35,653 bases of DNA from Candidatus Aminicenantes bacterium JdFR-78. Lineage in GTDB: Bacteria > Acidobacteriota > Aminicenantia > JdFR-78. This document shows positions 28,922-35,386 of the stretch, in pieces (positions within the stretch are counted from its first letter, which is position 1; each line of letters begins with the position of its first letter). The translations under genes were made by a program, and so were the position numbers. The stretch is taken from the NCBI GenBank assembly GCA_002010665.1, contig MTON01000001.1, positions 1 through 35,653 of the forward strand, written 5' to 3'. The notes under the pieces were generated by a model. It saw only the letters and a list, made by a program, of their open reading frames with translations, had not been told where the DNA came from and ran no database searches.

Positions 28922-30142
28922 TTATCTTCCATAAATAATTTCTTTTATGCTTAATCGGATTTCTTTTTTACTACTATATTCCATTAAAGCTTGCCAGCGT
29001 TTTTGTAATTTGCAAAGGTTCTGAAAAGGATCGAACTTGGGCATAGCATCAGTTTTTGCGAGGATAATATTGTTTAACGCCTCTCTACTGCTTTCTCTAT
29101 CGTCATTTGATAAATATTCAAGGGCAAGCATCTCACAAGACCTATATATTTTTTCATCTAAGTCGTGTTTCAGAAAACAGCCCGGATAAGGGTCAAAATC
29201 CTCTGGATAAACCATTTTCATTCTTTTCTCTTTTTTCTGGTTTGCAATTTTCGCACGCTCATACACGAAACGGTAAATATCTTCTCGCAACTGTCTCCAG
29301 GTGGGATGCGCTTTTGGTGGTGGAAGATGCTTAATAGATAGTTGGTTATCTAAAAAGAAATTAAATCCGAACATCTTCGCATTTATCAAAAAGTCTATAT
29401 CTTCTCCTCTGGGAACAAAGGGGTCAAAAGGTACTACAGTAAAAAGACTGTGATGAATAACCATGTTACCACCAAATACAAAAGGAGTCTCTTTCAACCT
29501 CGGTTCAGTCCCAATGATTTTATCAAAGGCTTCGTTCATCTTTTCATATTGATCCCAATATTTCATCCAGGGGCGAAACGGTTTTTTAATATGATAATCA
29601 CCATCTGGTTGGAGATAATATCCAGCTATTGCATTGACAGTTTTACCTCTGATTCTTTTACCTATAAATTCTTTTGCCTTCGACATGAATTTCGGGTCTT
29701 CAAACACTTCATCATCATCAATAAGCACTGCTGCTTCTGAACCCAAAACATGCGGAATAAACATGCATAGATTTCTAACATTAGAATACCCACGTAGTTG
29801 AAGAAGGTCAATATATTCCTCTTTTCCATCGCTGCGCAATAGATTGTGTATCCTTTCGAGATGAGAGTGTCCGAATAGCAACACTTCTATTTTAGTACCG
29901 GAAGATTTTATGATATTGGCAACTTTCTCTTCAACTTGCTTTTCAATATCTTCAGCAGTGGCTACTGCAAGTATTACCAGTTGAAAATCTTTATCCTCTA
30001 ATATGTCCATACTCTGCATTGCCCTAAGTAGTGTACCTTCCTTATCTAAAGGAGTTGGATGATCATATATGGCATCTCCTTCTTTCCAACCAATATCACT
30101 TTCTCTTGCCCAATACGATGGAATTACCATTGTAACTTTCAT
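28922..30142 (-). CDS. GT-A fold glycosyltransferase (GT2-like)
   Basis: This 406-residue protein, without signal peptide, starts MKVTMVIPSYW, the usual GT-A opening. It has the metal-binding D-D-D at 142-144 (AAVLIDDDEVFED), FVFGGNMVIHHSLF (~221-234) as an acceptor-loop segment and PRGEDIDFLI (~244-253), equivalent to the catalytic E-D of GT2 enzymes. The ~70-residue C-terminal part is helical (SCEMLALEYLSNDDRESSRE). It is not in an obvious saccharide cluster, so sugar and acceptor are unknown. The Shine-Dalgarno is AAAAGGAGG. By eye its base composition is richer in G+C than its surroundings, and an attC-like stem follows its upstream edge, so recent acquisition is plausible. Confidence 0.8.
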   Translation of the reverse strand: MKVTMVIPSYWARESDIGWKEGDAIYDHPTPLDKEGTLLRAMQSMDILEDKDFQLVILAVATAEDIEKQVEEKVANIIKSSGTKIEVLLFGHSHLERIHNLLRSDGKEEYIDLLQLRGYSNVRNLCMFIPHVLGSEAAVLIDDDEVFEDPKFMSKAKEFIGKRIRGKTVNAIAGYYLQPDGDYHIKKPFRPWMKYWDQYEKMNEAFDKIIGTEPRLKETPFVFGGNMVIHHSLFTVVPFDPFVPRGEDIDFLINAKMFGFNFFLDNQLSIKHLPPPKAHPTWRQLREDIYRFVYERAKIANQKKEKRMKMVYPEDFDPYPGCFLKHDLDEKIYRSCEMLALEYLSNDDRESSREALNNIILAKTDAMPKFDPFQNLCKLQKRWQALMEYSSKKEIRLSIKEIIYGR

Positions 30143-30181
30143 ATCGTAACTTCCTCCTTTTTTCTTATATAATATGAAATT

Positions 30182-30273
30182 GTGTATAATGTTCGGGGTA
30201 TATTCGAAGTTCCGAGCGAAGCGAGAAATTTGGACAGAGCGTTAGTGAAGCCGGATATACACCTGTTATACGC
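30182..30273. other. Integron attC-like imperfect stem
   Basis: Outer arms GTATAAT (30184-30190) and GTTATAC (30265-30271) pair with one G-T wobble. Inner arms GGGGTATATTCG (30195-30206) and CGGATATACACC (30252-30263) pair with one mismatch and one wobble. The junction is asymmetric (4 nt against 1) and the loop is 45 nt (30207-30251, with CGAGCGAAGCGAG). GTTATAC differs from the attC core GTTRRRY at one base. The layout of paired outer and inner boxes with unequal spacers is that of attC sites, but no integrase is in the window. Confidence 0.45.
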
Positions 30274-30666
30274 CATTTTTTGGTGCATATTACTTCACCT
30301 TATATCTATCTTTTTGATTAAATAAAGTTATGTCCTTATAACCTTTCTTAATTTTTGCACTATGCTTTACACCTTTTGGAATAAAATAAGTGTCTCCCTT
30401 TCTGAAAATGTATTTCTTATTCTCTATGATCAATTCCATTTCGCCATCTAAAATCACACCCCATTGTGCTTCATGTGAATGCTCTGGAATTTCCACATCT
30501 TTCTTAAAACTCATAAAAATGATTTGTTGATTTTCACCCTGGAAAAGATAAGCATTTACTCCGTCAATACCAATATTTACTTTTGGCAGTTTTTTGATTA
30601 TCTCTGGGAAGAAATCCTCTTTTAACATTTTAAATCCTCCTTTTCCTAATCTAAATGGCGTATAAC
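30265..30666. repeat. Inverted 14-mers bounding the cupin gene
   Basis: GTTATACGCCATTT lies on the plus strand at 30265-30278 and, identically, on the minus strand at 30653-30666. The cupin gene fills almost exactly the 374 nt between. The second copy overlaps the end of the 85-codon ORF. Confidence 0.8.
30290..30628 (-). CDS. Small cupin-domain protein
   Basis: This 112-residue protein consists of a single cupin barrel. Motif 1 is DVEIPEHSHEAQWGVILDGE (~45-64) with the HxH pair and a glutamate or glutamine position. Motif 2 is FRKGDTYFIPKGVKHSAKI (~79-97) with its histidine. Such stand-alone cupins bind a metal and act as small enzymes or sensors; nothing here indicates the substrate. A clear GGAGG precedes the start. 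It is enclosed by inverted 14-mers and adjoins the attC-like stem, so it may be a mobile cassette gene. Confidence 0.85.
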   Translation of the reverse strand: MLKEDFFPEIIKKLPKVNIGIDGVNAYLFQGENQQIIFMSFKKDVEIPEHSHEAQWGVILDGEMELIIENKKYIFRKGDTYFIPKGVKHSAKIKKGYKDITLFNQKDRYKVK

Positions 30667-30903
30667 TCGTTCATATAAGAACTGGTTCGCATATTCTTCC
30701 AAAAAGGAAGTATATCCGAACTTTGTATAATACCTTCTTGGTAAACCATTGTCATCTGTCCTGCTTTCAAATAATCCCTCCAAAGGAGTTTTTATATATG
30801 ATAAATTTCTTGTACTTATATGAATGTGAATCTCAGTCATTTTTGGACTTTTGAAACCGATTGACTCCTTCGCATATGAAAAAAATTCCTTGCGCTTTCG
30901 CAC
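30646..30903 (-). CDS. Doubtful 85-residue ORF with an internal hairpin
   Basis: The frame starts with GTG at 30903, lacks a Shine-Dalgarno and encodes MRKRKEFFSYAKESIGFKSP, then TEIHIHISTRNLSYIKTP, ending NQFLYERVIRHLD. I recognise no family. The last codons are supplied by the inverted 14-mer GTTATACGCCATTT and the C-terminal third by the hairpin at 30685-30721. It could be the tail of a broken gene, or a cassette ORF running into its recombination site. Confidence 0.3.
   Translation of the reverse strand: MRKRKEFFSYAKESIGFKSPKMTEIHIHISTRNLSYIKTPLEGLFESRTDDNGLPRRYYTKFGYTSFLEEYANQFLYERVIRHLD
30685..30721. repeat. Strong 16-bp inverted repeat with a 5-nt loop
   Basis: GTTCGCATATTCTTCC (30685-30700), loop AAAAA, GGAAGTATATCCGAAC (30706-30721). 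The arms match at 14 of 16 positions. It shares GGATATAC (on the minus strand) with the attC-like stem at 30182-30273 and sits 19 nt from the second 14-mer. Confidence 0.75.
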
Positions 30904-31001: not shown

Positions 31002-32108
31002 TTAGTATGTGTTTCCAAGCAAGTGAATGTTGCCTATTTTTACTTTTTTTAGGCCTGCTTTTAAGGCTACTTCTCTGCATTTTTGAGCATGGTTTCTGGA
31101 AGTTGTTGGCAAATCTGGCATGTAAAAATGGGGATAAAAACCCAACAAAGAATAAGGAATTTCTGGATTTAAATCTGCAATAAATTTTGCAATCTGATAC
31201 ACTTCATTTTCATCCACATATCCTGGCACAAGAAGGGTGCTCGCAATTAAAAGAGGAGGATCTTTTCTGTATTTTATCCATTCTGAAGCATAAGCAAAAT
31301 TTTCTAAGGTTCTTCGATTACTCACTCCACAAAGCGCAATATGTAAATTCTCGTTCCAGGCTTTTAAATCGAATTTTACGCATCCTCCTGATTCTAATGA
31401 AAGCTCGAGCATTTTTTTAAGAAGTCTTTGATTCATTGAGCCATTTGTCTCCCAGCAAATTCTCAATATTCTTCCTTTATTCATTTTTAATGCCAGGCGG
31501 GAGGCTTTTATTGCATGTGATAATTGTGGAGTTGGGTCTCCTCCAAAATAGCAAATACATGAAGTACGTGAGTCAACTGCGCTTGCTAATTCATATGCAG
31601 TAATATTCTGTTTACTTTCAATATACTCCCTGAAATGCCAGTTCTGGCAGAATAGGCAGTTAAAACTGCATCCATGATAAAAAACTGCTAAATTTTTATA
31701 TCCATATTCTGGTCCTTCAGAATAGGAAAATTTAGGATAACCAGCTCCAGTTCCTCCTGGACAGACCCAATCACCAACACAATTCGTTGGCAAGGAATCA
31801 TAATACCACGAAAGATTTCCTCTTTCACCTGAAGGAGCCTTAAATTTTCCTCCATCATTTTTCCGCAAACCACAGTATCCTTTCTCACCCTCACCAATTA
31901 TGCATTCATTTATGCAGAAATCACATTTTATTCCATCCTCGCTTTTAGGAGGTTCTGCAGGTAATCCAAATCTTTCATGACTTATGGCATGAATCTTTCT
32001 AATCTGAGGCAGAACTTTTTCAAATTTTTCTTTTATACATTTAGCACATAGATTTAAAAATTTAGAAATCAGAATGGATTCCTGACCGCAATTAATGCAT
32101 TTTGCCAT
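31002..32108 (-). CDS. PflA-like radical SAM enzyme with N-terminal Cys-rich region
   Basis: This 368-residue protein starts with a CxxC...CxxC zinc-ribbon (C4, C7, C21, C24) and then a four-cysteine module C62-x2-C65-x3-C69-x9-C79 (ends GEKGYC). The radical SAM cluster motif is C147-x3-C151-x2-C154 in FYHGCSFNCLFCQNWHF, followed by CYFGGDPTPQ (~196-205) and CWETNG (~229-234). The second cysteine module has exactly the spacing found in the AmrS-like protein at 33621-34637, so the two are divergent paralogues (COG1180 type). Its substrate is unknown. It starts 2 nt after the glycosidase-like gene, whose last codons supply the Shine-Dalgarno (AAGGAG). Confidence 0.82.
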   Translation of the reverse strand: MAKCINCGQESILISKFLNLCAKCIKEKFEKVLPQIRKIHAISHERFGLPAEPPKSEDGIKCDFCINECIIGEGEKGYCGLRKNDGGKFKAPSGERGNLSWYYDSLPTNCVGDWVCPGGTGAGYPKFSYSEGPEYGYKNLAVFYHGCSFNCLFCQNWHFREYIESKQNITAYELASAVDSRTSCICYFGGDPTPQLSHAIKASRLALKMNKGRILRICWETNGSMNQRLLKKMLELSLESGGCVKFDLKAWNENLHIALCGVSNRRTLENFAYASEWIKYRKDPPLLIASTLLVPGYVDENEVYQIAKFIADLNPEIPYSLLGFYPHFYMPDLPTTSRNHAQKCREVALKAGLKKVKIGNIHLLGNTY

Positions 32109-32110
32109 TT

Positions 32111-33616
32111 TTATCTTCTACTTACTCCTTTCTTTTTTCTATGGACTTCCTTATAAAGTTCATTAAGTGTTTGCCACAAATCATTCGGAGGATACATCTC
32201 TAAATTATAATACCACCAGAAACCTCCCAATAAACTGAATGAATATCCCAATGCACTTGCGTACATCTGTTTGCAGAATTTTTTCCTTACAATAGAAACT
32301 GGTTCTGTATTACTATGCCACCACCAGATGTCCTCTCCTTCAACATACCAGTAGTCCATTTCTCCAATCATAATTTTCTTTTCAGGAAAATATTTGTGAA
32401 GCATTTGAAATACTTCATCAAAAGCCATGCCCAGAGGGCTATTCATTACATAAATGGAAAGGGCAATAACATCTATTTTATTAATAAGTTCAGATCTAAG
32501 ATTGTTTTTCACCCACTGAAAAACTGAATGTGGAATATCTTCAGTGCCAAATTGCCAATATAAAGTTAGCACAGTAATGGCATTAGGTCTAACTTTCTTA
32601 ATATAATTTGCAGCATATTCAATTTTCGCAACTACATCTGACCCCAGCCACTCTCCATTAATTTCATTGCCGATTTCCCAGGCTTCAATATCTGGAAAAT
32701 GGTTAACATACTCTCTGACTCTGGATTTAAAATCCTCCAAAGAATATAATCTCATACAGCACGAATCCAGGATTTCTCCCATAATATGAAGGTTTTTCTT
32801 CTGTGCATAGGAGACAATTCCATCATAATATTCAGGTGGAATGAATTCATCAAAGACAATTCTAATCCATCCATCTATGGTTGAATTCTGTACTAAATCA
32901 CTTACTGAATTTAATACATTCTGATAATCATCTATTCTATCAATTGTTACTCCCCACCAGAATTGCTGGGATGGATGTCGCTGAGCATATTGAATTCCAT
33001 ATTCATAAAGCAAAAGTTCATAAGCCCGAGCAATATAATCAAGTGCTATCTGCCCGTATTTCCCCTTTAAAGAGTCTTTGTTGACTTGTTTTGCCAGATT
33101 AATATAATATCTTGCATTTTCATAAAGTTTGTTAAAATTTGAACTGGGTTTATAATCTTCCCTAATTGAAAGAGCATTGTTCAATTTTCTCCAGTAACTC
33201 AATGCTGCTTCATAATTAAAAATGATTGTTTCACTTTTGCTAAATCCTGCTCCTTCTTTGTCGAGAAAAAGGTTAAAATATCCTGTATTTTCTGTCATCC
33301 AGGTTAAACTCAAACCAATTCCAGAACCTTTAAAATCAAAACATGGATTGCCATTATTGTCTTTATATAAAGGCCATCCTTCCACAATGGTATAATCATT
33401 TATATTAAAAAGCATATCATTTTCAGCCCATCCTCTATTGCCATTTGTAACTATATCCATGAATTCCTCATAACTTAGTTTATTACCCTCTCTATCATAT
33501 ACTTTCATGATTATGGTTTTATATGCGTCGGCAGAGCTATTTGACTGATAAAAAATTAAACTAAAAATCAGAATAATAAAGAAAATTATAAGAAATGCTT
33601 TTGTTTTTTTAATCAT
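32111..33616 (-). CDS. Secreted glycoside hydrolase-like protein (clan GH-A style barrel)
   Basis: This 501-residue protein has one N-terminal hydrophobic segment (~7-24, signal or anchor). A helical region (~135-210) precedes a TIM-barrel-like part: WIRIVFDEF (~250-258), LHIMGEILD (~276-284), AWEIGNEINGEW (~312-323) with an N-E pair (E318, acid/base candidate), VLTLYWQFG (~349-357), VIALSIYV and KIMIGEMDYW (~414-423, E419 the nucleophile candidate). The arrangement N-E on strand 4 and E on strand 7 is that of clan GH-A. I cannot give the GH family or substrate. The gene lies between two radical SAM genes with gaps of 2 and 4 nt. Confidence 0.65.
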   Translation of the reverse strand: MIKKTKAFLIIFFIILIFSLIFYQSNSSADAYKTIIMKVYDREGNKLSYEEFMDIVTNGNRGWAENDMLFNINDYTIVEGWPLYKDNNGNPCFDFKGSGIGLSLTWMTENTGYFNLFLDKEGAGFSKSETIIFNYEAALSYWRKLNNALSIREDYKPSSNFNKLYENARYYINLAKQVNKDSLKGKYGQIALDYIARAYELLLYEYGIQYAQRHPSQQFWWGVTIDRIDDYQNVLNSVSDLVQNSTIDGWIRIVFDEFIPPEYYDGIVSYAQKKNLHIMGEILDSCCMRLYSLEDFKSRVREYVNHFPDIEAWEIGNEINGEWLGSDVVAKIEYAANYIKKVRPNAITVLTLYWQFGTEDIPHSVFQWVKNNLRSELINKIDVIALSIYVMNSPLGMAFDEVFQMLHKYFPEKKIMIGEMDYWYVEGEDIWWWHSNTEPVSIVRKKFCKQMYASALGYSFSLLGGFWWYYNLEMYPPNDLWQTLNELYKEVHRKKKGVSRR

Positions 33617-33620
33617 TATT

Positions 33621-34637
33621 TTAAAACTTTCCAGATATCACTGTTTTACAATTAGGGCATTTATTATCAATTAAAATGAATTTTTTTATGTCAAATACAC
33701 TTCTCTGAATAAGAAGCTCCCCACAATTTGGACAGTAAGTATTTTCTCCTGGGTGGTCAGGAACATTTCCAAGATATACATATTGAAGACCTTCGCTGAA
33801 TCCTATTTCTCTTATTTTTTCCAGCTTCTCAACTGAAGTTGGTCTTAAATAAGAAAGGTCAAGATGAGGAAAAAATCGTGTTACATGCCATGGTGTATCC
33901 TTACCCAGTTCTTTTTTAATCCACTTTGCCATTTCCCTCAATTCTTCTTCATTATCATTATATTCGGGTATAACATTTGTTACAATTTCAACATGCATTT
34001 TCCATTTCCGCTTTGCTCTTTTAATCACTTCTAAAATTCCTTTGAAATTCTCAACATTAGCAATTTTCCTATAAGTTTCTTTTGAAAATCCTTTCAAATC
34101 AACGCGAAAGACATCGAGATATGAACCAATTAAGTCAAGTGCTTCCGGTGTAATAAATCCATTTGTTACATAATTTGTATGGAGTTTGTTAATTTTTGCT
34201 AACTTTGCTCCATCCAGAGTATATTCAAACCATAGAGTGGGTTCATTATAAGTCCATGAAATACCAAGACAGTTTCTCTCCTTTGCAATATTTACAAGTT
34301 CAACAGGAGAAATGTACCGAGCACTTTTAAGGTCATCTTTTACATCTGAGTGAGCAATATCCCAGTTCTGACATCCAGGACATCGGAAATTACATCCAAA
34401 ACTCCCGAGGGAAAGCCACAGAGAACCAGGATAAAAATGGAAAAAGGGCTTTTTTTCAGCTGGAGATATCATTATAGAAGAGACCATTCCATATATTTGG
34501 CTAAAAAGTTTTCCCTCACGATTAATTCTTGTTCTACAATATCCTCTTTCTCCTTCTTTAATTGTGCATCTTCTCTGACATATATTACAGCGGACTCTTT
34601 TTTTCTGGAGTTTTTCATAGAGGATTGTTTCTACCAT
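33621..34637 (-). CDS. amrS: AmrS-like radical SAM enzyme (AmmeMemoRadiSam system type)
   Basis: This 338-residue protein shows the AmrS pattern: the N-terminal module C17-x2-C20-x3-C24-x9-C34 (EGERGYC), QIYGMVSSIMISPAEKKPFF (~47-66), FYPGSLWLSLGSFGCNFRCP with C82-x3-C86-x2-C89 and QNWDIA, GISWTYNEPTLW (~124-135), YVTNGFI (~156-162), and HVTRFFPHLDLSYLRPT (~252-268). A C-terminal zinc knuckle follows (CPNC ... CPNC, ~306-333). AmrS enzymes occur with Memo and AMMECR1-domain proteins; neither is visible here, so the partner genes are elsewhere or lost. The start overlaps the next radical SAM gene's end by 7 nt. Confidence 0.85.
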   Translation of the reverse strand: MVETILYEKLQKKRVRCNICQRRCTIKEGERGYCRTRINREGKLFSQIYGMVSSIMISPAEKKPFFHFYPGSLWLSLGSFGCNFRCPGCQNWDIAHSDVKDDLKSARYISPVELVNIAKERNCLGISWTYNEPTLWFEYTLDGAKLAKINKLHTNYVTNGFITPEALDLIGSYLDVFRVDLKGFSKETYRKIANVENFKGILEVIKRAKRKWKMHVEIVTNVIPEYNDNEEELREMAKWIKKELGKDTPWHVTRFFPHLDLSYLRPTSVEKLEKIREIGFSEGLQYVYLGNVPDHPGENTYCPNCGELLIQRSVFDIKKFILIDNKCPNCKTVISGKF

Positions 34638-35386
34638 AATTTAAAATTTGCCTTTTCGAGCCTAATTAGTGAAGTTGGATAAGGATCGCAAATTTCTTCT
34701 TCGAGATAGTCATCGTATCCGATTGCTTTTAATTTCTGAATTAAAAGTTGTCTTTCCTCATAAGACATTAATCTTCTATCCGTCATTGCTGCAACATGAA
34801 ATTTTAATCCTGCTTTTTTCAAATTTTCCACAGCCTTAAAGGGAAGTTCATAGAAATCACCTTTTGCTCCTGTTCTTCTCTCAAATCCTTTAGGAGTTCC
34901 AGCTTTTATGGAAACTCTTATATGAATATTCCTGAATTTTTTCAATTTATTGACATATTCAGGATCATTACCAAAAAGTATCCCGTTTGTTTCCAGAATA
35001 AATAAATAAGGAGTCTTATTAATTAATTCAAGAAGAGAAATTAAATGTTCCTGACAAAGAGTTGGTTCTCCTCCGGAAATTCTCAATTTTAAAACTTTTT
35101 TCTTTCTGGCATTCCGCACTAAAATATTAAAAGCTTCCTCAGATGAGTAAAATCTTCCCAGTTTGAAGGGGAAATCCCTTGACCAGTCAACCCAGCAGAA
35201 AACGCATCTCAAACAGCATCCAACAGCATAACCTGTGGAAATTCCTCCATAAACTCCTGTGCAGTAGAAATCTGTATATTTTCTTGATTTTCCCCTGCAT
35301 ACAATTTCTTCTGTTTGGCAAACTAATTTAATAGGGTCAAAGGGTTTGCTTTGGGGAGTTAGAAAAGAAGGGTAATCTTCCTTCAT
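34631..35386 (-). CDS. Radical SAM protein
   Basis: This 251-residue protein has the cluster motif C57-x3-C61-x2-C64 in YAVGCCLRCVFCWVDWSRD, then LRISGGEPTL (~102-111), FILETNG (~129-135) for SAM binding, IHIRVSIKAG (~154-163) and AAMTDRRLMS (~199-208). VCRGKSRKYTDFYCTGVYGG at ~29-48 recalls archaeal and thermophile radical SAM proteins (COG2108/2100-like) of unknown substrate. It starts 7 nt after the stop of the outer-membrane barrel gene and overlaps the AmrS-like gene, placing three radical SAM genes in one run. Confidence 0.8.
   Translation of the reverse strand: MKEDYPSFLTPQSKPFDPIKLVCQTEEIVCRGKSRKYTDFYCTGVYGGISTGYAVGCCLRCVFCWVDWSRDFPFKLGRFYSSEEAFNILVRNARKKKVLKLRISGGEPTLCQEHLISLLELINKTPYLFILETNGILFGNDPEYVNKLKKFRNIHIRVSIKAGTPKGFERRTGAKGDFYELPFKAVENLKKAGLKFHVAAMTDRRLMSYEERQLLIQKLKAIGYDDYLEEEICDPYPTSLIRLEKANFKLW

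Follow-up and report, generated by a model that had tools for sequence, protein, structure and literature searches.

The window, a stretch of 35,653 nucleotides from Candidatus Aminicenantes bacterium JdFR-78, contains on its minus strand (30181-30903) what is, judging from its sequence, very probably a decayed integron, comprising the stub of an integrase gene, an attI site, a single cupin cassette and an attC, which would have been built by an IntI-like tyrosine recombinase lacking the I2 insertion. Read along the minus strand, the order is the ORF containing the stub, the attI-like site, the cupin gene, the attC and, after about 40 bp, a glycosyltransferase-like gene (Table 1). The first-pass annotation had described an attC-like stem in a region with no visible integrase; this last point was mistaken, as a recombinase stub is located a short way upstream of the cupin cassette.

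Table 1. Features of the putative decayed integron and its flank (positions in the window).
Feature	Positions	Strand	Details
Glycosyltransferase-like gene beside attC	28922-30142	minus	best taken as native flank; no attC found after it
attC of the cupin cassette	30181-30274	minus	R1 77.5 bits, R2 59.8 bits; covariation
attC arms	R'' 30265-30271, L'' 30252-30263, loop, L' 30195-30206, R' 30184-30190		
Cassette gene, stand-alone Cupin_2 protein, 112 aa	30290-30628	minus	PF07883 E 1.4e-11
5' end of the cupin cassette, GTTATACGCCATTT	30653-30666	minus	complementary to its own R'' arm, perfect inverted match to 30265-30278
attI-like site	30657-30735	minus	dyads, then TATATGAACGA/GTTATAC
Tyrosine recombinase C-terminal stub, 39 aa	30760-30876	minus	inside ORF 30646-30903

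The outer arms originally proposed for the stem, GTATAAT (30184-30190) and GTTATAC (30265-30271) on the plus strand, were found as described, together with the nested inner arms (30195-30206 and 30252-30263) and the unequal spacers, and the R' of the window attC reads ATTATAC, with A in place of G as its first base. Folding energy was dropped as proof of the stem: as DNA, the fold is not significant, its energy being unremarkable with respect to shuffled sequences (z = -0.18), and as RNA it gave z = -1.88, with 10 of 200 shuffles equally good. The hairpin is judged real on the basis of homology and not of energy, as the same two-helix element, with strong covariation, recurs across genomes. 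In alignment A2, 88% of the cells are paired, there are 119 double-change cells, and covariation amounts to 0.51 compared to 0.19 in shuffles (0 of 500 as high).

A covariance model (R1) built from five hand-checked attCs, with an R stem of 7 bp, an L stem of 11 bp and spacers of 1-2 and 5 nt, matched 51 sites, which are distributed over 19 of the 100 class genomes searched, nearly all of these sites lying outside the five-sequence training set, and a model rebuilt from 38 of the matches found 55 sites in 21 of 142 genomes. The window attC scored 77.5 bits (E 1.6e-15), being itself one of the five training sequences. The L stem of these attCs shows strong covariation and no bulged base. An exact-pattern search of the genome of origin returned the window copy only; by the model, this genome contains one more attC (G000:C23:31254-31346) and its relatives about 50. 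A home-made attC scanner that did not use a covariance model was rejected as too noisy. As an alternative, the stem might belong to a transcript, serving the glycosyltransferase or the cupin gene as leader or terminator; although its RNA fold is somewhat better than that of shuffles, this seems to us extremely improbable, given that an Rfam search identified no family, that the regions upstream of the glycosyltransferase genes of relatives are devoid of any such element, and that the gene preceding the element varies from genome to genome. The covariance model, the further copies and the lack of conservation as a leader thus support the initial reading of the stem as an integron attC.

The second attC of the genome (L189, L206) lies behind a methyltransferase-like gene, 240 nt from the contig end; a 5' cassette end was looked for and not found. 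In this genome, which is 96.8% complete, a profile search detected no IntI above the cut-off, and no intact I2-less integrase was found at E 1e-55; with two attCs and no intact integron integrase, it carries what is classified as a CALIN or SALIN. Most attC-bearing genomes of the class show no intact integrase of either kind. Most of the genomes are MAGs, so single cases might be contamination.

A circularised cassette carries the TTRRRY from its 5' end opposite R'', and because of this its ends are expected to pair with each other once it is inserted. The cupin gene, which has a Shine-Dalgarno-like AGGAGG upstream, is flanked by such ends: AAATGGCGTATAAC, at the R'' arm, and GTTATACGCCATTT, at the 5' end, form a perfect inverted match of 14 nt, which none of 20,000 shuffles of the flanking sequence equalled and which extends to 24 nt at 83%. 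Among neighbouring sites in relatives, matches of at least 8 nt were present in 13 of 22 adjacent pairs, compared to 3.9% of non-adjacent ones (p = 1.5e-13). For the cupin gene, the matching ends and its own attC thus bear out the proposed cassette insertion. Because the two elements can also be read as inverted arms of 24 nt, we considered that they might be the inverted repeats of a transposon or MITE pair, with the cupin gene between them moved by a transposase. This is very unlikely, since the arms are unequal beyond 14 nt, their outer parts differ (attI versus attC), and the end pairing is private to each cassette, with a different sequence each time, unlike that of a transposon.

In the 22 cassettes compared, the pairing of the ends continues past the R box, and position 11 is mismatched in all but the window cassette (21 of 22), a feature set against a single canonical cassette (class 1 aadA1); in 16 cases the mismatch consists, on the top strand, of an A at the 5' end and a C opposite, which on the bottom strand would give a T-G wobble. 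Extended end pairing was dropped as a hallmark of the family, as the ends of class 1 aadA1 also pair for about 13 nt, two of them mismatched.

Homologues of the cupin protein with 57-87% identity were found in archaeal, Phycisphaerae, Bacteroidales and Desulfobacteraceae MAGs, and the cupin homologue of L034 is likewise followed by an attC. A Marinimicrobia MAG carries a 43% identical, apparently damaged cupin copy followed by an attC (GCGTATAAC...CGTTAGGC), and in the same MAG an integrase 63% identical to that of L048 was found. In an Archaeoglobus MAG (L023), a cupin gene 81% identical to that of the window has behind it (after position 2947) a remnant, GCCTATAACAGGTATATGGAACGTTAGGC, that is attC-like and very short, possibly as a result of cross-domain transfer or contamination.

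On the other side of the attC, the glycosyltransferase-like gene owes its label to the first-pass annotation, Pfam giving no match, and has a G+C content of 0.37 compared to about 0.32. Its presumed foreign origin did not hold, as 31 of 142 genomes of the class carry relatives with 52-75% identity. We also rejected it as a second cassette, because it recurs in the class, no attC was found when sought downstream, and its relatives lack the element. It is best taken as a native gene, since a higher G+C content does not make a cassette. Elsewhere in the window, three radical-SAM-looking genes are located on the same strand within 4.4 kb (31002-35386; Pfam check on 31002-32108).

The stub (YAKESIGFKSPKMTEIHIHISTRNLSYIKTPLEGLFESR, compared to YIQELLGHKSSKTTEIYTHVSNKDLSKIKNPLDSIILER in the intact relative L048) reads TEIHIHIS in place of the TEIYTHVS of intact relatives, the catalytic Tyr being replaced by His, and the catalytic domain upstream is gone. 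In tblastn searches it showed 40-48% identity to the integrases of L048, L046, L068, L069 and L077 (best E 1.6e-8); with 39 aa it is too short to hold the I2 region. The adjoining attI-like site, which the first-pass annotation had overlooked and which was assigned by sequence resemblance and by its position beside the integrase gene, ends in TATATGAACGA/GTTATACGCC, the G of GTTATACGCC (30666) marking the point of insertion. Sites like it are found directly 3' of the intact integrases of L046, L048, L157, L158 and L190-L192; in L047, one such site directly follows a truncated integrase. L051 (5755-5850; G012:C7) contains a further attI-like site, which has two clear dyads and precedes a gene, with no integrase recognised beside it.

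The same arrangement could in principle be an ordinary CALIN or SALIN remnant, with the cassette inserted by a canonical IntI and an unrelated recombinase stub nearby, which we regard as unlikely yet worth weighing. Canonical IntI is encoded in 5 of 100 genomes of the class, and one of these (G094) has attCs of the same type with no I2-less integrase detected. This attC type is thus not exclusive to I2-less integrases, and a canonical IntI might conceivably act in trans on some of the arrays. Nevertheless, the stub best matches I2-less integrases, and it lies directly 5' of an attI-like site whose relatives are placed directly 3' of I2-less integrases or their fragments, with L051 as the exception. 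Moreover, canonical IntI occurs with these attCs in 2 of 5 genomes (p 0.24), whereas the I2-less family or its fragments do so in 6 of 6 (p 2e-5), some of the fragments having been found through att sites, and intact I2-less integrases alone in 2 of 2 (p 0.03).

Our preferred reading of a decayed integron built by an I2-less enzyme depends on the properties of the relatives of the stub. In canonical integrases, I2 docks the extrahelical base of the attC. The relatives (L046, L048, L157, L158, L190-L192, L077, L078, L211 and L213) are tyrosine recombinases; two of them were scanned and contain Phage_int_SAM_4 and Phage_integrase domains along with a weak HARP-like N-terminal domain, and the sequences of the others were inspected directly. 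The alignment revealed that the IntI insertion is absent from all of them, and the patch III/I2 additional domain is lacking in the intact ones: residues 178-238 of VchIntIA (2A3V; 61 residues) face 19 in L077, and TIGR02249 matches in two pieces (227.7/218.5 bits versus a cut-off of 265). The predicted structure of L077 (mediocre as a whole, pTM 0.56, with the catalytic domain mostly confident) has no extra helix at the I2 position and resembles both XerA and VchIntIA, and the closest solved chain by sequence is the XerA-type enzyme 4A8E. In a maximum likelihood tree, canonical IntIs form one group (100/100), and IntI plus I2-less enzymes are set apart from Xer (100/99). The I2-less enzymes fall outside the IntI group, their grouping with one another is weakly supported (80/48), and the root joins long branches; this topology is compatible with a possible pre-I2 ancestry as well as with a sister lineage.

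The lack of I2 alone was rejected as a mark of an integron, as L049, L050 and L159 have no attI behind. In these three, the I2-less recombinase is directly followed by an IS91-type-looking transposase gene, in what appears to be a recurrent pair.

Intact platforms were found elsewhere. In L077 and L213, as in L046, L048, L157, L158 and L190-L192, an attI-like site follows the stop codon of the integrase. L077, a contig of a viral collection, carries a run of five consecutive cassettes, the ends of which pair over 19-20 nt, and L213, a plasmid of the cultured Rufibacter tibetensis (NZ_CP012644), carries the integrase DC20_RS21760 followed by about six same-strand genes split by attCs, with pairing ends. 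The Xer pattern of a dif and no cassettes does not apply to these two, in which cassette arrays lie behind the integrase. One cassette with its attC was present in each of L048, L193, L194 and L211 (Chryseobacterium). Contigs L157, L158 and L191 end at ...AAGTT, ...GAGTTA and ...GAGTT, respectively, no more than one base from the crossover point predicted; such breaks would be expected if the cassette joined there varied from cell to cell. No array was recognised in the Kovacikia plasmid meant as a canonical control.

Truncated I2-less integrases were also found beside resistance genes. In the Acinetobacter plasmids pJAT2044 and p80-1-2-tetX3 (L218, 2193-2383, and L219), one precedes tet(X3), with an attI-like dyad ending in CACTT/GTTATGTG directly before the gene and an attC-like half without a clear R' after it. 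In plasmid p2 of Klebsiella michiganensis YL6-1 (L217, 2250-2361, and L220), another lies directly before blaVEB-3, together with an attI-like site ending in GGGA/GTTAGCGG; an attC was sought between blaVEB-3 and the downstream IS26, and none was found. These cases provide a lead on the mobilisation of both genes.

In the mechanism that we propose, the intact integrase would bind attI and the attC of a circular cassette, the latter acting, by analogy, as a folded single strand, and exchange between the G and the TT would insert the cassette, so that its TTATAC... end would adjoin attI and its R'' arm would precede the next site. We infer that the I2-less enzyme itself would catalyse this recombination because of its position and because no canonical IntI was detected above the cut-off in genomes G005, G020, G034, G039 and G043 or in that of the window. 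In the window the process would have ended, with the integrase destroyed, one cassette left and the R' of the attC now beginning with ATT.

Such a system would share with canonical integrons an attI beside the integrase, cassettes of mostly one gene, the R''-L''-L'-R' arms of attC, the R' GTTRRRY insertion point and the complementary cassette ends. It differs in an integrase without I2, often with a weak HARP-like N-terminal domain, and in an attC L stem of 11 bp without the typical bulged base, unlike canonical attCs, whose conserved extrahelical bases direct the choice of strand (PMC2727003). As in Treponema, whose intI was reported as an integron integrase, the integrase is transcribed toward attI and in the direction of the cassettes (PMC3607928). 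Archaeal integrons also have attI immediately downstream of the integrase gene and cassettes common across domains, but their IntIs are reported with the IntI-specific additional domain (PMC9668308). Xer enzymes likewise lack the insertion and include the closest solved chain, but they act on dif, and it is with IntI that the I2-less enzymes group on the tree.

PMC7790495 describes the I2 helix as a requirement for cassette capture and as the innovation that gave rise to integrons. In the part of PMC8138268 that deals with the 'Integron-like' tyrosine recombinase subgroup, the insertion is regarded as essential to the function of integrons, and no arrays of cassettes are reported next to members that lack it. 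With IntegronFinder 2.0, only one new complete integron was singled out in Bacteroidota (PMC9024848). In the open-access literature we found no paper linking I2-less integrases to cassette arrays. On balance, we lean towards a second form of integron, whose integrase, of a lineage alongside canonical IntI, never had, or does without, I2 and captures attCs that have no extrahelical base in the L stem; by the same reading, this form would be spread among genomes of the class, the Marinimicrobia group, Bacteroidota plasmids and contigs of viral collections, and some of the CALINs already known would be arrays belonging to I2-less platforms. Tools demanding a canonical IntI would list such integrons as CALINs. 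The arrays beside I2-less integrases would represent either working integrons without I2 or a state near the origin of integrons, which the existence of cultured carriers makes accessible to direct testing, and surveys keyed to canonical IntI would be missing a class of platforms, notably in Bacteroidota.
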